Part shown: positions 14,554-27,572 of the stretch, in pieces | How positions within the stretch are numbered: the stretch's first letter is position 1 | How the letters are laid out: every line of letters begins with the position of its first letter | DNA from: Pontiella desulfatans | GTDB taxonomy: Bacteria; Verrucomicrobiota; Kiritimatiellia; Kiritimatiellales; Pontiellaceae | Assembly (NCBI RefSeq): GCF_900890425.1 | Contig: NZ_CAAHFG010000004.1 | Location: 366,798 to 430,797, forward strand | Direction: 5' to 3' | Length of the DNA stretch: 64,000 nt | The notes under the pieces: model-generated | Databases searched by the model: none | What the model was told of the DNA's origin: nothing | Seen by the model: only the letters and a program-made list of their open reading frames with translations | Made by a program: the position numbers and the translations under genes

Positions 14554-17500
14554 TCATGGAGCCGGGGCCAGCTGCAGGCGGAACATGAGCGCGGGTTCGT
14601 TGGTGCTTGCGGGTTTGACGACAACCTCTTGGGCAGCGCCGTCGGGCGCGGTGGATTCTTCGGAATAGGCGGCGGCGATCCATTGGGTGGGCGTTGCGCT
14701 GCTCTGGATGGAAATGGCGTAGTCGGTGGCCTGCGTGTTCCGCCTGTACCAAAGGCGCGGCTCGCCGTCGTTGCCGAGGAAGATTCCGAAGGGGCTGTCG
14801 TTGCTGGCCAGCGGATCGGTGAGCTGCATGTATTCCCAGATGTTCAGGAGTCCATCCCCTTCCGCATCGCCGAGCAGGTTGGTATCGGCGCCGGAGTTTC
14901 CGGCGAAAGCGGTCTGCACATAGTTCCCGTAGGTGGAGGGCGGCGGAATATCGAGGCGGACCAAAACGACGTCCAGCGAATCGATGTTGACGCCGCTTTG
15001 GCCCGTGGTTTCGAGCAGGATGGTGTTGTTGCCGGCCTGTAGGTGTTGCTCGGAGGATTGGGTGGTCCAACTGGAGGTCCAACCCCCTGAGCTGGGGAAT
15101 TCCCAATCCGTCGCCACCGTAGTGCCGTTGATAGTGAGGTCCATCGGGCGGTTGCGATTAGAATCGCCACTGGTGTAGCGCACTTGGATTTCATAATCGC
15201 CCGGTTGCGATGCGTAGACCATCCAAGTGATGCTCCCCTCGGAGCTGCTGAAATCGGCGAATCCGGATCCGGTCCAGCCGCTGCCGCCGGTTTTGACAAC
15301 GGGGCCGGAAAGCGCTGCATCCTCCGCCTCGTAGGGTCCCGTGCTTGGATAGATGACTTCGAGCTGGTCGAAATTCATTCCGCTTTGACCGGAGGTTGAA
15401 AGCCGGATGAGGTTTGAGCCGTTCTTGAGTTTGCGGGTCGAGCGCACCGTTGCCCACGTCGTGTCCCAATCCCCGGTGTTGGGGAACTCCAACGCATCGT
15501 CGATCCGTTCGCCGTTGAATTCGAAGCGCATCGGACGGCCGCCGTCGGGATCGGCGCCGGCATAGTGGAAGGCCAGCACCACCTCTTCGTCATCGCCGTC
15601 GGTGGTGACCGACCATTCGATGAATCCTTCGCCGTTGGAGAAGTCGAGGAAGCCCGTCCCCTTCCAGCCGGAACCGCTGGCGGCCACGGCCGCTCCGGCG
15701 GAATCCGCGTCTTCGGCTTGATAGAGCGTTCCGACGGCGGAGATGGCGGGCGCGCCCCAATAGAGCCCTTCGTCCTCATCGAACAGCTCTTCGCAGGAGA
15801 CGACCTTTGCGCCGTCGGCATAGATGGCGGCCTTCACGGTTGTGCCGAGGTTGACGGAAAAGCTTTCCGTGTAGGGTGTGGAACTATCGTCCGGTTCTGA
15901 GCCGTCGACCGTGTAGTAGATGGCGATGGTTTTGTTGGCGGGCGCACCCCGGAGGGCGAGTTGGTCCACATGGATGGAAACCCGGTCGGATGTAATCTGC
16001 CGCCGCTCGCCGAGGATCGCGGCGGCCAGCAGCAGGATCTCGCCGTCGTCCGTTGTGGATTCCACGAAAGCCTTGGCCTTGCCCATAAAGGCGCGGCGGT
16101 TATCCGCCCGGTGCGGATCGGTGTCGGTCGGGCCGCCGTTGCCCACGGATTTGAGGGTGGCGGGGCCGAAGAGTTCGAACCAGACGCGGTTTTCGCCGTA
16201 GGGGTAGAACACGTGGTTGGTGTCGTTGATGGAGACAACGACCTCGGCCATGTCGCGCGCGTCCGCCAAAAGATTCGTGTTGTTGCTTTCGAGTTGGATG
16301 CAGGCGGGAAGGTCTGCTGTTTCGATGGATTTTTCGACCACCTTGGTTCCGCCGATGTAGCCCTCGGCCCTCAGGGTTCCCGGAAGCCATTGCACCAGCC
16401 ACTCGGCCGCCATTTGATCCCAACCGCCATCGAGGCCGCCGAGGGCCTTGGTTCCCAGCAGGCCGCCGTCCTTGTAGAGCCGCACCTCTTCGCAGTTGGA
16501 ATAGACGGCCACGGGAACCTCCGTCCCCTCGACCATCACGGGGTGGGTCCAGCTTGGCAGGATGTGGATCATCGGCGACTCGTTGCCGTCGGTCCAGAGG
16601 CTTTGGTAGAGATAGCAGGCGTCCTTCGGGAAGCCGGCGACGTCGATGACGCCGGAGCTGAACAGGCGGAACGGCCAGCCACCGTAGATATAGTCGGCTT
16701 CGCCGAGATAGTCGAAGCCCGTCCAGCGGAAGGCGCCGCTGAGCCAGTCCGACTCCTGCACCTTTTGCTGGAAATGGCGGATGTTGTCGCGCACGTAGGC
16801 GTTGTCGTAGGACGAGTTGAAGGCCCGTTTATAGGTGTGGCTCCCGGCCCAGTCGTAGGTGAAGATTTCCGACGGGGTCAGATTCGGCGTTTCGAGCACG
16901 GTGGTTGCGTTGTAGCCGTCGCGGTACCAGGTTTGTGTGCGGTACACGCCGCGCGCCATCCAGCTATGCGTGCATTCCGTACCGATGAAGGGCGCGGTGG
17001 AGCTGGGATTGGACGTGAAGTTGATTCGTTCGGTGGCGCCGTTTTCGCCGTAGACATCCATCATCTCCTCGTTGGAGCTACCGCTGGTCACAAGGCGGGA
17101 CGGATCCATGGCATGGCAGACGGCGAGCATGTTTGCGGCGGCGGTGGATCCGGAGGTTTCGTTGCCGAGGCTCCAGAGAATGACGCTCGGGTGGTTGCGG
17201 TCGCGCATCAGCCAGTCGGTGATGTCGGTTTCCCACCAGTCGTTAAAATCGAGCGCGCCGTAATCCTGCGCCGCCTTTTGCTTCCAGCCGTCGAAAATCT
17301 CGTCCATCACCATCAGGCCGATGCGGTCGCACAGTTCATAGAAGATCGGGGGGCGCGGATAGTGCGAGGTGCGCACGGCATTGGCGCCCATATCCTTCAG
17401 CATTTGCAGACGGTTGCGCACCACCGCGTCCGGCACGGCGGCGCCGAGCGGGCCGTGGGCCCAGTGGTTGCACATGCCGTGGATTTTGAGGGGCTCGCCA

Positions 17501-18411
17501 TTGAGCTCGAACCCGGAGTTGCGATCCCAGGCGAGCGTACGCACACCGATGGTGGTTTCGTAGCGGTCGATTTCCACGCCGGCAGCCTTGAGCACGCTGT
17601 GAACCGTGTAGAGGTTGGGCGAACCGGGCGACCAAAGGTCTGGATTCGGGATGTGGGCCTGCTGTGAAAAGGTATTGGTTCCGCCCGGCGATACGCTCAA
17701 CGTTTGCGCTGAGCTTTGGCCGACGAGCGTGCCGGCCGCATCGTAGAGCTCCACCTGGCAGCTGACATTGGTTGTGGCGCCATGTTGGTTCACCATCCGC
17801 GTCTCGACATCCACGGTTGCATCGGAGCCGTCGTAGGAGGAGACCACCTGGGTTCCCCAACGGTCCACATGCACCTTGTTGGCGACGGAGGTCCAGACGT
17901 GGCCGTAGATTCCGGAGCCGGTGTACCAGCGCGCGGCGGGCTGCAGGCTGTTGTCCACCCGCACCGCGATCACCAGATTGGTTTTGCCGGCGATATGGTC
18001 GGTGAGATCGTAGGCGAACGAAATGTAGCCGTAGGGCCGGTGCCCCAACTCGGCCCCGTCCGCATAGACCGTGCTTTTGCGGAAGACGCCGTCGAACTGG
18101 ATCGAAACGTGTTGGCCCTGCCACGCCGGAGGAATCGCCAGGTTTTTGCGGTACCACCCGACGCCCGTCGGCAGGTAGCCGATCTTGCCGCCGCCGTTGG
18201 CCGATGCGCTGTATTCGCCCTCGATGCTCCAGTCGTGCGGAACGTTCAGCGACCGCCACGAGGCGTCGTCGAAGCCCAAGGCCTCCGCACCGGAAACATC
18301 CGCCTGGATAAATTTCCAATCAAAATCGGCCGACAGCCTTTGACGCTCTGCGACTGCACAGCTGACAACAAACAGAAGCAAAACCGAGGAACGGACGAGG
18401 GAACATTTCAT
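14554..18411 (-). CDS. Secreted GH2 glycosidase with two CBM6-like domains
   Basis: Glycoside hydrolase family 2 enzyme, probably a beta-galactosidase or related beta-glycosidase, exported to attack polysaccharides. From the start at 18411 it has 1285 residues. There is a signal peptide (MKCSLVRSSVLLLFVVSCAVA), an N-terminal sugar-binding sandwich with VPHDWS, an Ig-like middle, and a TIM barrel with acid/base E418 in LWSLGNE and probable nucleophile E479 in GTEC. A chitobiase-like segment and two CBM6-like modules, each opening with an acidic 'AED' strand (about 890-1020 and 1030-1160), follow. The C-terminus has a Ca-binding-like GDAEGDGLLNIWEY and a small beta domain. An alternative start lies 48 bp upstream, but it would bury the signal peptide. 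The ribosome-binding site is weak. The substrate is not decidable from sequence alone. Confidence 0.92.
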   Translation of the reverse strand: MKCSLVRSSVLLLFVVSCAVAERQRLSADFDWKFIQADVSGAEALGFDDASWRSLNVPHDWSIEGEYSASANGGGKIGYLPTGVGWYRKNLAIPPAWQGQHVSIQFDGVFRKSTVYADGAELGHRPYGYISFAYDLTDHIAGKTNLVIAVRVDNSLQPAARWYTGSGIYGHVWTSVANKVHVDRWGTQVVSSYDGSDATVDVETRMVNQHGATTNVSCQVELYDAAGTLVGQSSAQTLSVSPGGTNTFSQQAHIPNPDLWSPGSPNLYTVHSVLKAAGVEIDRYETTIGVRTLAWDRNSGFELNGEPLKIHGMCNHWAHGPLGAAVPDAVVRNRLQMLKDMGANAVRTSHYPRPPIFYELCDRIGLMVMDEIFDGWKQKAAQDYGALDFNDWWETDITDWLMRDRNHPSVILWSLGNETSGSTAAANMLAVCHAMDPSRLVTSGSSNEEMMDVYGENGATERINFTSNPSSTAPFIGTECTHSWMARGVYRTQTWYRDGYNATTVLETPNLTPSEIFTYDWAGSHTYKRAFNSSYDNAYVRDNIRHFQQKVQESDWLSGAFRWTGFDYLGEADYIYGGWPFRLFSSGVIDVAGFPKDACYLYQSLWTDGNESPMIHILPSWTHPVMVEGTEVPVAVYSNCEEVRLYKDGGLLGTKALGGLDGGWDQMAAEWLVQWLPGTLRAEGYIGGTKVVEKSIETADLPACIQLESNNTNLLADARDMAEVVVSINDTNHVFYPYGENRVWFELFGPATLKSVGNGGPTDTDPHRADNRRAFMGKAKAFVESTTDDGEILLLAAAILGERRQITSDRVSIHVDQLALRGAPANKTIAIYYTVDGSEPDDSSTPYTESFSVNLGTTVKAAIYADGAKVVSCEELFDEDEGLYWGAPAISAVGTLYQAEDADSAGAAVAASGSGWKGTGFLDFSNGEGFIEWSVTTDGDDEEVVLAFHYAGADPDGGRPMRFEFNGERIDDALEFPNTGDWDTTWATVRSTRKLKNGSNLIRLSTSGQSGMNFDQLEVIYPSTGPYEAEDAALSGPVVKTGGSGWTGSGFADFSSSEGSITWMVYASQPGDYEIQVRYTSGDSNRNRPMDLTINGTTVATDWEFPSSGGWTSSWTTQSSEQHLQAGNNTILLETTGQSGVNIDSLDVVLVRLDIPPPSTYGNYVQTAFAGNSGADTNLLGDAEGDGLLNIWEYMQLTDPLASNDSPFGIFLGNDGEPRLWYRRNTQATDYAISIQSSATPTQWIAAAYSEESTAPDGAAQEVVVKPASTNEPALMFRLQLAPAP

Positions 18412-18586
18412 GGTCAAAACCAACTCTCTTTCATTTGGTATGCTAGGCAGCAAAAGCATCTGAGCCTATATATTCATAAACCCCGCCAGACCGCTATGAA
18501 GGACGCGGGAAATGAGTTGCGGCCCAACGCGCCTACCTTTATGGGTGGTATACAAAACCATGTAGATGTGTTTACGTGTTATACCA

Positions 18587-19195
18587 ATGGGTACGAAGTG
18601 GAAAACACGGCAAAGCCTGCTGATGCGGGCGAAGAACCAGGACGACGAGGCGGCCTGGGAGGAGTTCGTTGCGTACTACCGCGATTTTATTGTGATGATC
18701 CTGCGCAAGATGAACCTCTATTCGGTGGATCTTGATGACCTGACGCAGGAGGTCCTGGTCAGGATCTGGAAAAGCCTGCCGAACCATATCTATGACCAGG
18801 ACAGAGCGAAGTTCCGCTCGTGGCTCAGCCACGTGATCCGCAACCAGGTGCTGAACCATATCCGGGCCAACCAGCGCCGCGACACCAGGCACGCCGTGGC
18901 CACCCGCGATGAATCCGTTGGGGGCCTCTTCACCAACGAGGAACCGGAAATCGAAAAGATTATCCAACAGGAGTGGGAAGTCTACGTGGTGAAGCTGGCC
19001 CTCAAGAATATATCCGCCCTGTTTTCCGAAGGCGCCATCAAGGCGTTTACCCTGAGCGTGGAAGGGAAAAGCTCCGCGCAGATTGCCGCGCATCTCGGCG
19101 TGAAGCCGAACTCGGTCATCAAGCTGAAGAACCGGGTGAAGGTTCGGCTTGCGCAGGAAATCCAACACCTCCGAAACGAGTTGGAGTCGGTGTGA
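18587..19195 (+). CDS. RNA polymerase sigma factor, ECF/sigma-70 type
   Basis: Alternative sigma factor of about 202 residues. Region 2 is visible as DDLTQEVLVRIWKSL followed by FRSWLSHVIRNQVLNHIR, and region 4 near the C-terminus as KSSAQIAAHLGVKPNSVIKLKNRVK. The acidic residues of region 2.2 (DLDD) are kept. No clear ribosome-binding site is seen; ATG at 18587 is preferred, with another in-frame ATG at 18566. Its TGA overlaps the GTG start of the kinase gene, so the two proteins are surely co-made and probably form a signalling pair. No anti-sigma gene is present. Sigma factors encoded beside Ser/Thr kinases are known in Planctomycetes and in Vibrio EcfP/PknT; whether phosphorylation controls this one is inference. 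Confidence 0.88.
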   Translation: MGTKWKTRQSLLMRAKNQDDEAAWEEFVAYYRDFIVMILRKMNLYSVDLDDLTQEVLVRIWKSLPNHIYDQDRAKFRSWLSHVIRNQVLNHIRANQRRDTRHAVATRDESVGGLFTNEEPEIEKIIQQEWEVYVVKLALKNISALFSEGAIKAFTLSVEGKSSAQIAAHLGVKPNSVIKLKNRVKVRLAQEIQHLRNELESV

Positions 19196-21249
19196 GCGAA
19201 GCGCCCTTCAACAATGATGAGCTGGACGGCATGGCCCGCATGCTCAGCTCCATGTACGGGGAGCGGGTCTCGGCGGAAGATTCCGAAGGGACGATCCATG
19301 CCGAGCTGAGAGCTTCGGGCGACCGCTACACGGATGCCGAGGTGCTGGCGCGCGGCGGCATGAAGAAGGTCAGCCGGGTGTTCGACACCAAAACCGGGCG
19401 GCAGGTGGCCATGGCCGAGCTACGCGCCCATGCGCCGGCGGAACTCTACGAACCTTTTCTGCGCGAAGCGCGCCTGACGGCCCTGCTGGAACATCCCAAC
19501 ATTATCTCCATCCACGACATCGGCCTGTTCCCCGATGGTCGACCGTTCTTTACCATGGATTTGAAGCGCGGCGATTCGCTGGCGAATATCCTGAGGAAAA
19601 ACAAGATGCCGCGCGAGCAGCTGCTCGAAATTTTCGTAAAGCTGTGCGATGCGCTTTCCTATGCCCACTCGCAAAAGGTGCTGCATCTTGACCTTAAACC
19701 GGAAAACATCCAGGTGGGCCGCTTCGGTGAAGTGTTTATTTGCGACTGGGGGCTGGGGAAGATCGCCGACGGGGATGAAAGCGATGGGCAGGAGTTTGAT
19801 CTCATGCTGTTCAACCCCGACCTGCTGAACAATATGACCCTCTCCGGCGAGCTGAAAGGGACGCCCGGCTACATGGCGCCGGAACAGTTCGAGAAGGGCG
19901 GCGTGAAAACCTTCCAAACGGATGTCTTTGCCCTGGGCTGCATGCTGTATGCGATTCTCACCCAGCAACCCCCGTTCAAAGGGAACCTGGAGGAAATCCG
20001 GGAACAAACCTTGGCCGGCAAGGTTGTTTCCCCGGCCAAGGCCTTTCCGAAAAAAAATGTACCGGCGGGCTTGAACGCCGTGGTGATGAAGGCCCTGAAT
20101 CCAAAACCTGCCCATCGCTACACATCCGCGGCGGAGCTGCGCGACGATGTGAAAAACTTTTTGTCGGGATTTTCCACCTCGGCCGAAAATGCCGGGTTGA
20201 TCAAGGAATCGGCGCTCTTTTTTAAGCGTAACCGAGCGGCCTGCCTGGTTGGACTGATGGCTCTGCTGGTGGTGGTTGCAACCACCGTTCTGTTTATTCA
20301 GCAGCTACAGGGCAGTCTGGTAGACACCCGACAGGCTCATGAGTTGGCCGAAATCCGGCGCGAGGAAGCCGACACGCAACGGCAGGAAGCCGAAGCCCTG
20401 CGGATCGAAGCCGAAACGGCATCCGCCCTCTATCGCGAAGAGCTGGATCGCAATCTGCGGTTGATCGGAAGCGTGGCCGAAAACCGGGAGCAACAGTTGT
20501 TCAGGCAAAACCTCGACTTTATCTATTTGGATCCGGTTTTGGCGATCGAGCTCTCCCTGCAGCAACTCAACCTGCTTGCGAGGGAGGCGCCCTCGCCCTA
20601 TTACTCCGGGGAGATCGGGTTCCGCCATTTTATCCGGCAGGAGTTCGCCGTTGCGGAAGACCATCTTAAAAGGGGCGGCAAGAGCCACATTGATCTGTGG
20701 GAGCTAAGCCGGAAATATAAAAACCGAAAATCCGGCCACTTGTTGAACCTCGACTGGTTCGCGGAGTTGATCGGGGATCTGAAAGCGTCCAAAATGTACC
20801 GCACGGCATTGATGGAGCGGATGCTCGTCTACGACGATGCCGTACGTGAGGACAAGACCGGGTATGAAAAAGTCGTGGAGGCCGTTCTGCGCGGGTGGAA
20901 CAACCGGTGGACCGAAGGCAGATTTGAATATGATCCCGAAAACGCTTCGCTCGAACTATCGGGAATCAACTTAAAGAGGTTCGTGATCCAATCCAATGTC
21001 AACTCCGGCGAAAGCCCGTTGCGGTTTATCAATATCCGGACGCTGGATGTCCACCACACGGGGCTTCAGGATCTGAATCAGATTAAAACACTGCGGATTC
21101 AGTCGCTCGATATCAGCAACACCGAAGTGGTTGACCTAAAACCCATAAGCCTTTTTCCAGCATTGAAAACGCTGATTGTGGCCCCAAACCAGTTTACGGA
21201 CGCGCAGCTGGCCGCTTTGCCGTCAACGATCAGCGTTTCCATCCGCTGA
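19192..21249 (+). CDS. Membrane Ser/Thr protein kinase with WNK-like lysine placement
   Basis: Eukaryotic-type protein kinase of 685 residues starting at GTG 19192 (GGAG 5 bases upstream), overlapping the sigma factor stop. The kinase domain covers about 45-325, with catalytic HLDLKPEN (H165-N172) and DWG (D185-G187). The usual VAIK lysine is absent: the site reads VAMA (72-75). Instead a lysine stands in the glycine loop, ARGGMKK (K58), the position used in eukaryotic WNK kinases. A single membrane helix (about 350-369) is followed by a coiled coil rich in Glu/Arg and an extracytoplasmic region ending in leucine-rich-like strands (LDVHHTGLQDL, SLDISNTEVVDL). The protein probably senses an envelope signal and acts on its partner sigma factor; this is inferred from coupling only. 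Confidence 0.88.
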   Translation: MSEAPFNNDELDGMARMLSSMYGERVSAEDSEGTIHAELRASGDRYTDAEVLARGGMKKVSRVFDTKTGRQVAMAELRAHAPAELYEPFLREARLTALLEHPNIISIHDIGLFPDGRPFFTMDLKRGDSLANILRKNKMPREQLLEIFVKLCDALSYAHSQKVLHLDLKPENIQVGRFGEVFICDWGLGKIADGDESDGQEFDLMLFNPDLLNNMTLSGELKGTPGYMAPEQFEKGGVKTFQTDVFALGCMLYAILTQQPPFKGNLEEIREQTLAGKVVSPAKAFPKKNVPAGLNAVVMKALNPKPAHRYTSAAELRDDVKNFLSGFSTSAENAGLIKESALFFKRNRAACLVGLMALLVVVATTVLFIQQLQGSLVDTRQAHELAEIRREEADTQRQEAEALRIEAETASALYREELDRNLRLIGSVAENREQQLFRQNLDFIYLDPVLAIELSLQQLNLLAREAPSPYYSGEIGFRHFIRQEFAVAEDHLKRGGKSHIDLWELSRKYKNRKSGHLLNLDWFAELIGDLKASKMYRTALMERMLVYDDAVREDKTGYEKVVEAVLRGWNNRWTEGRFEYDPENASLELSGINLKRFVIQSNVNSGESPLRFINIRTLDVHHTGLQDLNQIKTLRIQSLDISNTEVVDLKPISLFPALKTLIVAPNQFTDAQLAALPSTISVSIR

Positions 21250-21251
21250 GG

Positions 21252-21286
21252 CGTGATACGTGATACGTGATACGTGATACGTGATT
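21252..21286. repeat. Short tandem heptamer repeat (CGTGATA)
   Basis: Four full copies of CGTGATA plus a partial fifth follow the kinase stop directly and end in a T-run (GATTTTTC). Slippage-type low-complexity DNA; a similar degenerate string (ATTACG/ATCAC units) is found at 39204-39232. Confidence 0.85.
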
Positions 21287-21491: not shown

Positions 21492-23477
21492 ATGAGGAAA
21501 ACAACATGGATAGCCGCTTTGGCGGCGGGGATCGTTGGTATTTCAAACGCCGAAACGATTTACATCGATTTCTACGATAACGGAACCGTTAATTCCGCGA
21601 CGGAAACCTATAACGTATTGCATTCCGGCGCCGGGCAGGGCGGAAGCCACCCCTTGGCTTCGGCTAGTTCGGGGCTGAGCATAATGAATATGGTGGACAC
21701 GGGAAATGGCGCGACCCCCGTCGATGCTCATCTCATCTCCTATAATAACGACGGAAATACATCTGCCGGCGGCGGGAATGTCGCCATCGGCGAAATCAGC
21801 GGGATTGCCACCAATGCGTCAAGTGATGCGCTCTGGTGCAACGATCAAGGAACGGCCGGCAGCGACTTTGGTCTGGTTTTGACGTTCAGCAATTTGACCG
21901 GATCCGCATACAACATTTCACTGCTGACCGCGACATCTTCCGGCGCCGGAACCTGGTCTGTGACGACCGGTGCAGGGGATGCAAGCGCTGTAGCCTATCC
22001 TACCGTTGTAAACACGTCGAACACGCTTGATTGGACGTCGGTCGTGCCGGTCGGAGGCACGATTCAACTGACCAGCGCGAATACGTCCGGCGGTAGCTGG
22101 AAAAACATCTGGCTCGCCTTTGCTTCGCTGGAGGCCGTTACCGTTAGCGGTGCACCGCCGAGCGCCGATGCCATCTCGACCAATGTTGTCGAGGACGGAA
22201 GTGTAAACATCACCTTGAGCGGTGACGATACCGATGGCGACGAGTTGACCTACCGTATTCAGTCCATGCCGGCCAACGGCACGCTGACGACGAACGGTAC
22301 GCTCCCGGATGTCACCTACACCCCGGATGCAAACTATGTCGGCGACGACAGCTTTACCTATTACGTCAATGACGGAACGCTTGACAGTACGGTAGCCACG
22401 GTCTCGATCACGGTCGATCCGGGCAACGACGATGCGCCCGTTGCCGATGACAAGGAAGTCACCGTCCTCGAAAATGGCTCGGTCGAGATCACGCTGAGTG
22501 GTTCCGATCCCGAAGGCAGCAACCTGACCTATGCCGTGGTCTCCGGCCCCGGCAACGGCAGCTTGAGCGACACCACCGGGCAGGTGCTCACCTACACGCC
22601 GGATGCGGACTTTTTTGGTTCCGATAGCTTTACCTACACCGTCAACGACGGCGCACAAGACAGCGCCCCGGCCATCGTCTCCATCACGGTCATCGAAGTG
22701 TCTGATGACACATTGATCATCAATGGCGATTTTGAAGCGGATGAGATCGCAGGCAACAATGTACTTGGGCCCGTTACGGGCTGGAATGACGGCGCCAACA
22801 TCAGAATCGATGCCTCGGACTCCAAAACCCCGGGGAACCCGAATACCGTCGTGCGGTTGACGGGAAATTCCACCGTATACCAAAATTTCACCACGACCTG
22901 GAGCTCGAACGATACGTTCAAGCTTACCTTCAATGCCTGCAATGTGTGGTGGAAAACGGGTACCGAGCCCGGCATCTGGGTGTCCATGCGCAGCGCCACG
23001 GGCACGGAATATGCCGCACAGTTGGCCGCCACGGCCCAGACCCATGCGAACACCACCTATGCAGACTGGACGCAAGATATGACCTGGAGCTTTGAATTTG
23101 CCTGCTCCAACCTAGTCGCGGCAGGTGCGAGCCCCAATGACGAATTGCGGCTCAACTTCTGGTCTAAGAACAACAACAACTCGATTAACTGGCTCGACAA
23201 TGTCTCGTTGGCCCTGGAAGTCGGCGAGCTTCCTCCGCCGTCGGAAGTCGGCGACATCTCCATCGAAGTCGTCTCCGGCGGAACCGAAGTGGCCCTCACC
23301 TGGCCAACCGCGGCTGGTTGGAACTATGGCGTGGTGGCAAGATCAAGCCTGGTGATCGGAAGCTGGGATACCGCCACCGACATCACCAATGGCGTTCCCG
23401 GAAATGGCGGCGACGTGACCATCACCATCCCTGCAACGGATGACGTCGAGTTCTACCGCGCTTATCTCGATAACTAA
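21492..23477 (+). CDS. Secreted protein with two Ig-like (cadherin/Big_9) repeats
   Basis: A 661-residue exported protein of unknown role. It has a signal peptide ending near SNAET (residue about 20), an N-terminal beta-rich region, then two tandem bacterial Ig/cadherin-like repeats at about 222-308 and 315-400. Each repeat holds the hallmark ending TYTPDANYVGDDSFTYYVNDG or its variant. A beta-sandwich module beginning INGDFEAD covers about 408-575. A C-terminal domain ends in FYRAYLDN. The NGDFE module recurs twice in the esterase gene downstream. AGGAG sits 7 bases before the ATG. No PEP-CTERM or LPXTG anchor is visible. Likely adhesion or glycan binding; this is inference. Confidence 0.8.
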   Translation: MRKTTWIAALAAGIVGISNAETIYIDFYDNGTVNSATETYNVLHSGAGQGGSHPLASASSGLSIMNMVDTGNGATPVDAHLISYNNDGNTSAGGGNVAIGEISGIATNASSDALWCNDQGTAGSDFGLVLTFSNLTGSAYNISLLTATSSGAGTWSVTTGAGDASAVAYPTVVNTSNTLDWTSVVPVGGTIQLTSANTSGGSWKNIWLAFASLEAVTVSGAPPSADAISTNVVEDGSVNITLSGDDTDGDELTYRIQSMPANGTLTTNGTLPDVTYTPDANYVGDDSFTYYVNDGTLDSTVATVSITVDPGNDDAPVADDKEVTVLENGSVEITLSGSDPEGSNLTYAVVSGPGNGSLSDTTGQVLTYTPDADFFGSDSFTYTVNDGAQDSAPAIVSITVIEVSDDTLIINGDFEADEIAGNNVLGPVTGWNDGANIRIDASDSKTPGNPNTVVRLTGNSTVYQNFTTTWSSNDTFKLTFNACNVWWKTGTEPGIWVSMRSATGTEYAAQLAATAQTHANTTYADWTQDMTWSFEFACSNLVAAGASPNDELRLNFWSKNNNNSINWLDNVSLALEVGELPPPSEVGDISIEVVSGGTEVALTWPTAAGWNYGVVARSSLVIGSWDTATDITNGVPGNGGDVTITIPATDDVEFYRAYLDN

Positions 23478-23549: not shown

Positions 23550-24269
23550 ATGAAAAAAACAATAGTAGCACTCATAGCGGTGTCCGGCCTGTTGGCCTCG
23601 GCAAACGCCGAGATCATCGTCAACCTTGATTCCCTCGATGTTAACTCATCGTTCGGCACCAGCACTGGCACCGTAGGTGCGGTGTCCGTCCCGTTGGGCG
23701 GCACTTCGGCGACACACTCGTTCACGGTCAGCGGCTTGGACGTTGCCGAGGACAGCACTGCCAATGACACCGTGACGTTTTATTACGATGTGACTGCGAT
23801 TAATGGCAATATCCAGAATATTACCGGTAACGCATTTTCAATCGGCGTCGATGGAACGGGTGATCCCACCGACCACGAAATCGATCCGGGCGAGGGTCTG
23901 ATCTTCGACAACCTGACGGCAACGGTTGTTTTTGGAGACGCCACCACGGACACGCTTGTCATCAATTCTGCGGCTTTCACGTACTTTGGGTTACGCTATC
24001 CGGGGGGTGGTGATGTGTACAATGTGACCACCTTGGCTGGCGAGGAGATTACCACTAGTTCAACCCTCGATGGCGGTTCTTATGATCCTTATGCCTTCGA
24101 AAGCCCACAGTCAGACTTCAAAGTCGTTTCTAGTGCTGGCGGTGGCTTCGGTGTCGATACCATTCAGGCAACCTTCACTTTGTCAGTCATCCCGGAACCG
24201 GCGACACTCGGTTTGGTGAGTGCATTTGGCGGAGCGGTTCTGTTTATCCGCCGTCGTTTCATGATCTAA
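23550..24269 (+). CDS. PEP-CTERM sorting-domain secreted protein
   Basis: A 239-residue exported protein. It has a signal peptide (MKKTIVALIAVSGLLASANA), a beta-rich middle of unknown function, and a C-terminal sorting tail: PEPATLGL, a hydrophobic helix, then RRRF. Such tails are recognised and cut by exosortases, which attach or release proteins in extracellular-polysaccharide-producing bacteria. No exosortase gene is in this window. AAAAGGAG precedes the ATG. A strong terminator follows 28 bp after the stop, so this is probably a single-gene unit or the last gene of one. Confidence 0.85.
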   Translation: MKKTIVALIAVSGLLASANAEIIVNLDSLDVNSSFGTSTGTVGAVSVPLGGTSATHSFTVSGLDVAEDSTANDTVTFYYDVTAINGNIQNITGNAFSIGVDGTGDPTDHEIDPGEGLIFDNLTATVVFGDATTDTLVINSAAFTYFGLRYPGGGDVYNVTTLAGEEITTSSTLDGGSYDPYAFESPQSDFKVVSSAGGGFGVDTIQATFTLSVIPEPATLGLVSAFGGAVLFIRRRFMI

Positions 24270-24419: not shown

Positions 24420-27400
24420 ATGAAAATCAAAACAACCATTTTGGCCCTGGCCGCTGTGGGGCTGCTGGCCTCGGCGCATGGCAACCTGATCCAGAACAGC
24501 GATTTGGAGGCCGATGGGTATACAGGCACCGGGGTGAATAACTTTACCACGACCATTACCAATTGGTCCGGCACCACGAAAATCAGCACCACGGGCGACA
24601 ACAACACGATTCCGGAGGCCCCGAACACGGTGTTCCGGATGCAGGACACGACGAGTGTCTGGCAGAATTTCTACGCGAATTGGGGGGCAACCAACACGTT
24701 CACGGTCACTCTTAACGCCTGCGAAGTCTATTGGAGATCCGGCGCCGCGGGCGCTAATCTGCTGTGGGTTTCGCTGAGAAGCGCCGCGGGCACGGAATAT
24801 GGCGCGGTTTCGATCGATCTTCAAGGCACGCACGGCGGGAGCGGCGTCACCTATGCCGAGTGGCAATCCAACCAGACGCACACCGTCCAGTTTTCGGGGC
24901 AGGATCTCATCGATGCCGGCGCAACCGCCGGAGAGGAGCTCAGGCTGAATATATATTCGGGGGATATTAACTGGGTCGACAACATTGCGCTGACCGGCGC
25001 GGAAGCCGGGGATCCGCCGACCGTGGGCTATGGCTCTCCGTTCCAAAACGGCATGGTGCTGCAGCGCGGCAAACCGATCAAGATCTGGGGAACGGACGAT
25101 CCAGCCAACACCGTGACGGTGTCGATCAACGGCAACAGCGCCCAGTGCGTGGCCGATGAAAACGGCGACTGGCTGGTTGAACTTCCGGCCATGACGGCGG
25201 GAGGCCCGTATGAGCTGGGCGCGAGCAGCAATGGCAAAACCAATACGCTGTCGGATGTGCTGGTGGGTGACGTCTGGATTGCCTTCGGCCAGTCCAACAT
25301 GGTGCGCCCGTTGAGCGAAATGACCAATAAGCAGAGCTATATCGATGATATTTCCACCAACCGCATGATCCGCTGCCTTAAGATTGCCCTGGATGCCGCC
25401 TTGACGCCCCAGAGCGAGGGAGACATGACCTGGCTCGACAATTCCAACCCAGGAGCCTGGGGTTCGGTCGCGGCCGTATTCGCCCACCAGATGCATGCGG
25501 GCAGCGGCGTGCCGACCGCCGTGATCTGGGCGGGCTGGGGCAGCTCGTCGATCGAAGGCTGGATGCCGAGCCAGATGACCGACGACTTTCCGCACTTCGA
25601 CGAGATGCTGGATCTGTATCAAAGCATCGGCGAATACACCACCGGCGATACGATCTCGTCGCGGGTGCCATCAGGATATGCCTCGAATCTTGAATTTATC
25701 ACGGCCGTGCTGAACGGCGAGGCCACGTGGGATGATAATGCCGAAATTTTCATCCGCACGCGCCCCAACATTATCTACAACCAGCGGATCCACCCGTTGC
25801 TCAACCTGGGCATTTCCGGGTTTGTCTGGTATCAGGGCGAGGCCAACAGCGGCACCCCGGAAAACGTTGCCCAATACGGCTTCACGCTGCCCGCATTCGT
25901 GACGGAATACCGCGAACTCTTCGATCAGGGCGACCTGCCTTTCCTGGGCGTGCAGCTTCCCTCGTACAACAGCACCTACTGGGCTTGGTTCCGCGAATCG
26001 CAGAGTCGCGTCTCGGCGCTGAGCAACGCCTTTGTGGCCGTAACCATCGATACGGGATTGGAGAACAACATCCACCCCTACGACAAGGAGCCGATCGGCC
26101 AGCGCCTTGCGCTGCTGGGCCGCAAATATGCGCTCGGCCAAGATATCGTGGCGCACGGCCCAACGTTCGAGTCCATTTCCATCAGCGGCAACGAAGCCAC
26201 GCTCGGCTTCGGCCACGCCGACGGCCTGACGACCGACGACGGATTGGATCCCGCCGAGTTTGAGTTGGCGGGCGCCGATCAGGTCTGGTACGCCGCGACC
26301 AGCTCTTCCATCAGCGGCACGAACGTGACCGTCAGTTCCAGTTCGGTCGCTGCTCCCGTGGCGGTGCGCTATGCATGGTCGCCCGCCCCGGTGAACACGG
26401 TAAACCTGATCAACAGCGACGGCCTGCCCGCCGCCCCCTTCCGCACCGATGATTGGACACCGACCGACCTGGGCGACCAGGCACCGATGGCCGTGAATGA
26501 CCGCTTTGCCGCATTCACCGATGAACTGCTCAGTGTTCCCGCCCCAGGAATTCTGGAAAACGATATCGATCTCAACCGCGACGATCTTTCCGCTTCGCTG
26601 GTGTCGGATGCAGCATATGGCACACTGGCGCTGGCACCCGACGGCTCGTTCACCTATACCGCCGTTGCCGGCTTTGCCGGATACGATTCCTTTGAGTATG
26701 CCGCCTTCGATGGTGCCCTCTCCGCAACGGCAACCGTGACGGTTGTCGTCCAAGGAGAGGTGGCCGGGGACGATTTGATCCTCAACGGGGATTTTGAGAC
26801 CAACGATGGCGCCACCGGAGGCAACACCTTTGCCAACTTTAACAGCTGGGTGGGATACAACGACGGCGACGCAGTGAATATCCGTAATGATCTGGGCAAT
26901 GGCGACAATGTCGTGGGTACTTCGATCATGCCGCGGCTGATCGCGACCAGCACCACGGGAGACCGAGGCGTATATCAGGATTTTTACGCTGGAACCTGGA
27001 ATAGCGCGCATACGTTCATCATCAGCTTCAATGCCTCCGAAGTCTATTGGAAGGCCGGAGGTGCCGATAATGACGGGGTCACCGTGTCCCTGGGCGATCA
27101 GGATGGCGGCAATGCCGTATCGGTCTATCTCAACCTGGATGGCACCTACGATGCCGACGACGAACCTTACACGACCTGGACCGGCAACCAGACCCACGAA
27201 CTGACCATCACGGGCACGGAGCTGATCGATGCGGGCGTAACCGCCGGGGAAGATCTCAGAATTGACCTCTCCGCAACCTACACCGGCAGCGGAAACTCCA
27301 TTATCTGGGTGGATAATATTTCGGTGATGCTGGAGTCCGATGCCGACGCACCCGAATTTGTGCCGGGTGGCGTGACCGTTTCCAACGGAAACCTCGTTGT

Positions 27401-27572
27401 ATCGTTCGCCGGAACCGTCGGCGGTCCGTACACGATCGAGTTCACCGACGATCTGACCGACACCAACGCATGGAACACGGTCACCAACTGGAGCGCCCTG
27501 CCCGCATCGCCAATGGCCGTCACCCTGCCCACCACCAACCCCGCCGCCTTCTATCGCGTTGGAACGCCGTAA
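24420..27572 (+). CDS. Secreted sialate O-acetylesterase-type (SASA) carbohydrate esterase
   Basis: Exported SGNH-type carbohydrate esterase of 1050 residues, expected to remove acetyl groups from glycans. There is a signal peptide (MKIKTTILALAAVGLLASAHG), then an NGDFE-like beta-sandwich (about 22-180, starting LIQNSDLEAD). The esterase part (about 190-670) has the nucleophile motif GQSNM (S292), VWYQGEANSG and an early FQNGMVLQRG strand typical of this family. A cadherin-like repeat (about 690-780), a second NGDFE module (about 783-970) and a C-terminal domain ending in FYRVGTP follow. GGAAGAG precedes the ATG. The domain family is clear; true substrate (acetylated sialate versus acetyl-xylan or other) is not. 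Confidence 0.88.
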   Translation: MKIKTTILALAAVGLLASAHGNLIQNSDLEADGYTGTGVNNFTTTITNWSGTTKISTTGDNNTIPEAPNTVFRMQDTTSVWQNFYANWGATNTFTVTLNACEVYWRSGAAGANLLWVSLRSAAGTEYGAVSIDLQGTHGGSGVTYAEWQSNQTHTVQFSGQDLIDAGATAGEELRLNIYSGDINWVDNIALTGAEAGDPPTVGYGSPFQNGMVLQRGKPIKIWGTDDPANTVTVSINGNSAQCVADENGDWLVELPAMTAGGPYELGASSNGKTNTLSDVLVGDVWIAFGQSNMVRPLSEMTNKQSYIDDISTNRMIRCLKIALDAALTPQSEGDMTWLDNSNPGAWGSVAAVFAHQMHAGSGVPTAVIWAGWGSSSIEGWMPSQMTDDFPHFDEMLDLYQSIGEYTTGDTISSRVPSGYASNLEFITAVLNGEATWDDNAEIFIRTRPNIIYNQRIHPLLNLGISGFVWYQGEANSGTPENVAQYGFTLPAFVTEYRELFDQGDLPFLGVQLPSYNSTYWAWFRESQSRVSALSNAFVAVTIDTGLENNIHPYDKEPIGQRLALLGRKYALGQDIVAHGPTFESISISGNEATLGFGHADGLTTDDGLDPAEFELAGADQVWYAATSSSISGTNVTVSSSSVAAPVAVRYAWSPAPVNTVNLINSDGLPAAPFRTDDWTPTDLGDQAPMAVNDRFAAFTDELLSVPAPGILENDIDLNRDDLSASLVSDAAYGTLALAPDGSFTYTAVAGFAGYDSFEYAAFDGALSATATVTVVVQGEVAGDDLILNGDFETNDGATGGNTFANFNSWVGYNDGDAVNIRNDLGNGDNVVGTSIMPRLIATSTTGDRGVYQDFYAGTWNSAHTFIISFNASEVYWKAGGADNDGVTVSLGDQDGGNAVSVYLNLDGTYDADDEPYTTWTGNQTHELTITGTELIDAGVTAGEDLRIDLSATYTGSGNSIIWVDNISVMLESDADAPEFVPGGVTVSNGNLVVSFAGTVGGPYTIEFTDDLTDTNAWNTVTNWSALPASPMAVTLPTTNPAAFYRVGTP

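Follow-up and report, generated by a model that had tools for sequence, protein, structure and literature searches.

The kinase encoded next to an ECF-type sigma factor in the window, the 64,000-nucleotide stretch of the Pontiella desulfatans genome (8.66 Mb) that was analysed, lacks the lysine of the VAIK motif and has a lysine at the third glycine of the glycine loop, which is the exchange known from animal WNK kinases. This reciprocal exchange was found throughout a bacterial kinase clade whose catalytic set is conserved, and in this genome each such kinase is paired one-to-one with an ECF sigma gene and has diverged together with it. The protein is probably an active WNK-like, non-RD sensor kinase of PknB ancestry, with the co-encoded ECF sigma factor as its likely direct substrate and a possible local regulon.

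The sigma gene (18587..19195, + strand) encoded a protein of 202 aa, with a Sigma70_r2 match at E 5.6e-15. The kinase gene (19192..21249, + strand) encoded a transmembrane Ser/Thr kinase of 685 aa, with a GTG start at 19192 and a stop at 21249. An earlier note on this DNA had described the two genes as overlapping, and the overlap was found to be the 4 bp GTGA, shared by the sigma stop codon and the kinase start. The kinase domain (residues 46-313; 19327..20130, + strand) was matched by Pkinase (PF00069, E 4.7e-37), and its predicted fold was nearest to PknB (1mru, Z 32.9, rmsd 1.5; 34% identity). A single hydrophobic helix was present in the kinase (residues 350-369; 20239..20298, + strand), preceded by KRNR, so that its positive side is towards the kinase domain. 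The C-terminal part was predicted with confidence as a separate domain (pLDDT 95 beyond the membrane), in agreement with the membrane helix and outside domain described earlier. This predicted outside domain (residues 435-685; 20494..21246, + strand) was composed of TPR-like helices followed by internalin-like leucine-rich repeats; the predicted leucine-rich part was short, and LRR proteins, with many internalins, predominated among its best structural matches (Z 7.5 to 9.5). By profile matches, TPR families were observed in three of 49 relatives and LRR_4 in six. Right after the kinase stop codon, a perfect 7-bp tandem repeat, CGTGATA, was present in 4.9 copies (21252-21285).

The glycine loop read GGMKK (19354..19368, + strand), in which K58 (19363-19365) replaced the third glycine, the position of PKA G55 and WNK1 K233. 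VAIK was replaced by VAMA (19405..19416, + strand), with A75 (19414-19416) at the place of the expected lysine. Both the missing VAIK lysine and the loop lysine claimed in the earlier note were thus read in the kinase ORF (ARGGMKKV and VAMA). The other catalytic residues, which had been called intact, were all present, namely the alphaC glutamate E92 (19465..19467, + strand), D167 in the catalytic loop HLDLKPEN (19684..19707, + strand) and D185 in the metal-binding motif DWGL (19744..19755, + strand). Beyond that claim, HRD was found as HLD, its arginine being lost (L166), and DFG as DWG.

Pkinase had 26 matches in the genome, spread over about 24 genes. The major kinase type (17 of the 24 kinase genes, the window kinase included) had Lys at the third loop glycine and Ala at the VAIK lysine, hereafter Lys/Ala, and the remaining seven had the ordinary VAIK lysine. 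Relatives were collected from named genomes with the patterns TPG[YF]M[AS]PE and [IVL]C[DE]A..YAHS, and also from 288 genomes of the phylum; since the search patterns were taken from the C-lobe, the sampling was blind to the lysine. Lys/Ala was found in 84 of the 143 kinase domains collected, and none of the 143 had both lysines or neither, two offsets being resolved by eye. Rows L010 (G/V) and L111 (G/A), which appeared to have no lysine, were alignment offsets with VAIK and VMK present, and A2/V2 at position 75 in the comparison of 77 with 49 sequences were offsets too, with VAIK and VMK visible.

The non-redundant set at 85% redundancy comprised 77 Lys/Ala sequences, from Kiritimatiellota, Lentisphaerota, Verrucomicrobiota and one planctomycete MAG, and 49 canonical ones. 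Both exchanges occurred together in 77/77 Lys/Ala sequences and in 0/49 canonical relatives, all 49 of which had Gly or Ala at the loop position along with the VAIK lysine. The check proposed in the earlier note, whether K58 is conserved wherever the VAIK lysine is absent, therefore gave no exception. The Fisher value for the exchange was 4e-36, a figure that ignores phylogeny, the tree needing only about one origin. The positions that differed most between the groups were 58 (Lys in 100%, against G in 92% and A in 8% of the canonical group), 75 (Ala in 100%, against Lys) and 166 (L in 97%, against R in 96%, the change of HRD to HLD), with Q174 and K222 next. K222 (19855-19857), just before the GT of the activation segment, was Lys in 80% of the Lys/Ala kinases and hydrophobic in the canonical ones; as it co-varies with the exchange, it may compensate for the loss of the HRD arginine. 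It could be supposed that the loop lysine is an incidental surface lysine, and that the kinase relies on a different residue or on no lysine at all, given that position 59 of the Lys/Ala kinases varies among basic residues, which are thus common there. This is hardly credible, however, with Lys at position 58 in all Lys/Ala kinases and in no canonical one, and with an exchange with A75 that is reciprocal without exception.

E92, D167, K169, N172, D185 and G187 were 100% conserved in the Lys/Ala and canonical groups alike, which argues for retained catalysis. The loss of VAIK could otherwise be taken as lost catalysis, the protein being a pseudokinase that, in the manner of an anti-sigma factor, keeps the sigma factor bound at the membrane until a signal releases it. 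The absence of both the VAIK lysine and the HRD arginine, the membrane location, and the lack of an anti-sigma gene beside the pair (among the listed domain families of the scanned neighbours) would suit such a role. But 77 diverse sequences have no variation in the HRD Asp, the catalytic-loop Lys and Asn, the DWG Asp or the alphaC Glu, and a lysine at the position of WNK1 makes up for the lost one in every case, a pattern that decaying pseudokinases do not have, so that a pseudokinase is improbable. The bacterial pseudokinase families with degraded motifs (ActPs1-3, DLHK, GLW, CP1 and DYD) were also rejected, the catalytic Asp, Asn and Lys and the alphaC Glu being invariant here. For Hanks-type membership, the Pkinase domain, catalytic-loop Asp, DFG Asp and alphaC Glu were all present, and the VAIK lysine was Ala in 77/77, with K58 instead; judged from these motifs, membership rests on homology and the remaining residues, as it does with WNK.

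WNK1, whose sequence was confirmed against PDB 5w7t_A, could be aligned to the kinase without gaps (ARGGMKKV/GRGSFKTV and VAMAEL/VAWCEL), and so could PknB. The likeness to the GRGSFK and VAWC of animal WNK kinases that had been pointed out earlier is thus exact in position. In eukaryotic WNK1-4, too, the lysine has moved from beta3 to the third-glycine position at the start of beta2 (PKA G55), leaving beta3 without it, and the alphaC Glu and HRD/DFG Asp are kept. The beta2 lysine of WNK1 is catalytic (PMC1821047, PMC10211241, PMC4718504), and its mutation abolishes activity (PMC10211241). By analogy with WNK, K58 would bind ATP and the kinase would be active. The two groups differ in other respects: WNK has a beta3 Cys (VAWC), DLG and the HRD arginine, whereas the kinases here have Ala (VAxA), DWG and HLD, and they are bacterial, membrane-spanning and linked to sigma factors.

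The family profile scored 180 bits with PknB and 75 bits with WNK1, and there was no WNK among the best 60 solved relatives, so WNK family membership by descent was rejected. Since profile and fold are nearest to PknB and not to WNK, the likeness to WNK is convergence. PknB-type Hanks kinases are the closest solved relatives and share the order of kinase, membrane helix and outside sensor; PknB differs in having VAVK with a loop Ser in place of Ala with Lys and HLD, and its outside part is PASTA instead of TPR/LRR. Charge shifts of a similar kind are known elsewhere. In the CAK-chloro subfamily the positive charge has moved from position 72 to 55 (R55/M72; PMC1821047), but this is a distant non-protein-kinase-like family, with Arg instead of Lys and with Phe for the alphaC Glu. 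POMK (SGK196) has a glycine-loop lysine in place of the beta3 lysine (PMC12599244), but its alphaC Glu and HRD/DFG Asp are also lost (PMC10211241) and its substrate is a sugar. If convergence on WNK went beyond the moved lysine in these mostly marine or saline bacteria, the space behind beta3 might bind chloride, and the kinases would sense chloride or osmolarity, either directly or together with the outside cue, and set sigma activity; this is very improbable, and if true, an anion-gated switch for transcription would have arisen here independently.

In a tree of 132 rows, the 79 Lys/Ala rows and L062 formed one group (SH-aLRT 98). In a thinned tree of 50 rows, a branch with support 92 separated the 34 Lys/Ala rows from the rest, and L062 was their sister. 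L062, from the verrucomicrobial MAG OFTM167, whose genome has 63 kinase matches, has a canonical VAMK lysine and already HLD. It may be an evolutionary intermediate showing the order of events, at a placement that is not firm; because it was nested in the full tree but sister in the thinned one, reversion is not claimed. Among the ten best matches in its genome no transitional form with both lysines was found, and all of them, L062 included, were canonical.

The sigma factor was of the ECF type, with regions 2 and 4 only. TIGR02937 (E 1.6e-20) and Sigma70_r2 were above cut-off, and region 4 (E 8.6e-5) was just under it. An ECF sigma gene was located beside 17/17 Lys/Ala kinases in the genome, with the sigma gene directly upstream in ten pairs, convergent in six and downstream in one. 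Conversely, 20/20 good matches to the window sigma adjoined a kinase gene, 17 of them Lys/Ala and three giant canonical. The giant canonical kinases (1199-1489 aa) were situated beside distant members of the sigma family, at C1:209000-216000 (L010), C1:830500-838000 (L018) and C1:845000-852000 (L017); because they also adjoin members, the sigma family predates the lysine exchange or extends beyond it. Within this one genome the sigma and kinase distances were correlated (Mantel r 0.88, n 16, p 1e-4), also without close copies (r 0.71, n 13, p 1e-4). Since all 17 adjoin and both partners co-diverge, the units are dedicated pairs.

In other genomes, such a sigma gene was found in the examined stretch near 27/37 Lys/Ala kinases and near 3/43 canonical ones (p 8e-10), so the sigma-kinase pairing seen by the earlier note in a single locus is general. 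Some Lys/Ala kinases, in forms of 368-461 aa and of about 1000 aa from Lentisphaeria, had no sigma gene in the examined stretch; because of them, sigma control is not the sole use of Lys/Ala kinases. The short forms (about 370-460 aa: L053, L054, L056, L066, L067 and L133-L138), with none of which a sigma gene was found in the examined stretches, mostly comprised a kinase domain and one hydrophobic helix at the C-end; L053 and L138, with possibly truncated ORFs, showed no helix. The absence of an anti-sigma factor, also claimed earlier, held for the neighbour proteins scanned, no anti-sigma domain being among the matches listed (25 of 34 and 25 of 45 families).

Direct phosphorylation of a sigma factor has precedents in EcfK-PknS and EcfP-PknT (PMC13147305, PMC8999054). 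These belong to ECF43, in which the sigma gene likewise adjoins the gene of a transmembrane Hanks kinase, with no anti-sigma factor. Region 2.2 of ECF43 lacks acidic residues, non-charged ones replacing DAED, and a phospho-Thr adds the missing charge (PMC8999054, PMC13147305), which is the sole mechanism proved for sigma-kinase pairs. The window sigma, in contrast, kept the acidic region-2.2 motif as DLDD (D48, D51), with D51 (or E) in 56/56 sigma rows covering the position. The ECF43 switch was therefore ruled out, because the acidic residues that phospho-Thr replaces in ECF43 are already there. Other kinase-linked ECF groups usually keep a DAED-like motif and may work otherwise (PMC8999054); among them, the planctomycete ECF59, ECF61, ECF62 and ECF217 share with this pair the superphylum, a sigma gene beside a Ser/Thr kinase gene and the usual DAED-like motif (PMC8999054), but the kinase lysine exchange is undescribed for them in the open-access literature searched. 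Conserved residues of the sigma factor were T7, S/T10 and W130. T7 and S/T10 could be N-terminal phospho-sites, although they are not specific to Lys/Ala-paired sigmas, being conserved beside canonical kinases as well, and no unique conserved phospho-site stood out in the sigma alignment.

That the kinase is active and WNK-like but acts on another protein (for example itself, a regulator encoded elsewhere or a factor of surface assembly), with the co-inherited sigma factor only transcribing the kinase and its neighbours, is unlikely, though the least so of the alternatives. Such a reading would explain why the sigma factor keeps the acidic motif needed for binding RNA polymerase without phosphorylation, why Lys/Ala kinases exist with no sigma gene nearby, and why 6/17 pairs are convergent and not an operon. 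The strict one-to-one pairing and co-divergence in one genome suggest physical contact, however, and two ECF43 pairs provide proven cases of a kinase that phosphorylates its sigma factor directly (PMC13147305). From the pairing and the ECF43 precedent, the sigma factor is likely the kinase substrate.

We infer the regulon of the pair from the surrounding genes. Possible members are a divergent secreted GH2 glycosidase with CBM35 (14554..18459, - strand), a secreted Big_9/cadherin-like protein (21492..23477, + strand), a PEP-CTERM protein (23550..24269, + strand) and a secreted SASA-type carbohydrate acetylesterase with Big_9 (24420..27572, + strand). PEP-CTERM proteins were found within 8 kb, a distance chosen after looking, of 8/17 pairs against 1.6 expected (2/5000 shifts). 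Secreted proteins of the Big_9/cadherin type made up 10/73 pair neighbours (at most 1/82 in random regions) and SASA esterases five of the 73 (at most one of 82), which suggests a role for each pair in governing surface or carbohydrate genes nearby. Sulfatases were not enriched near the pairs, with 7/73 neighbours against 16/82 in random regions. In the whole genome at least 150 sulfatases were scored, from 555 first-look candidates, a number that agrees with a polysaccharide degrader of the Pontiella type. A motif search upstream of the sigma, PEP-CTERM and secreted genes at the pairs gave nothing shared above shuffles. For the reverse reaction, the genome with its roughly 24 kinase genes gave a single PP2C-type phosphatase match, at C1:629547-630107 next to the double-kinase ORF L009, and six SpoIIE-type matches above cut-off.

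The gene pair would then form a dedicated two-protein signalling unit, in which a single membrane helix anchors an active kinase of the Hanks Ser/Thr type. The TPR-like/leucine-rich outside domain would sense the cue, which we infer to come from the envelope or the extracellular space. Lys58 at the start of beta2, and not a beta3 lysine, would hold the ATP phosphates, with Glu92 as the likely partner, an arrangement that WNK and this PknB-type lineage would have reached independently. The HLD motif lacks the arginine for the usual phosphate contact, and its loss suggests switching on without classical phosphorylation of the activation loop, probably through changes in how the outside and coiled-coil parts assemble. 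As its output, the kinase would most likely phosphorylate the co-encoded ECF sigma directly, whose activity towards RNA polymerase would change, and with it the local genes for surface proteins and carbohydrate enzymes. Counted against this explanation were the acidic region-2.2 motif kept by the sigma factor, the Lys/Ala kinases with no sigma gene in the examined stretch, the one PP2C for 24 kinase genes, the lack of a conserved unique sigma phospho-site in the alignment and the lack of a shared promoter motif at the pairs.

Sigma-kinase pairs, the moved lysine of WNK and the similar charge shifts of CAK-chloro and POMK are already known. What is apparently new is a clade of bacterial protein kinases that has exactly the WNK exchange and is tied to ECF sigma factors, of which no earlier description was found in the open-access literature searched; for the bacterial pseudokinase families, the searched passages of PMC12599244 likewise gave no PVC family or moved lysine. 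According to a 2007 survey, WNK alone among functional ePK families lacks the beta3 lysine (PMC1821047); in this clade the lysine would have made the same move independently. The PVC kinome survey demands K-D-D residues (PMC11032199), and surveys of this kind would therefore score Lys/Ala kinases as non-functional. The clade offers a natural experiment on the relocation of the ATP lysine, in which the co-changing K58, A75, L166, K222 and Q174 are visible and L062 is a possible intermediate. A sigma factor that has both the acidic motif and a dedicated kinase would also mean a second, unexplained route by which kinases control sigma factors.
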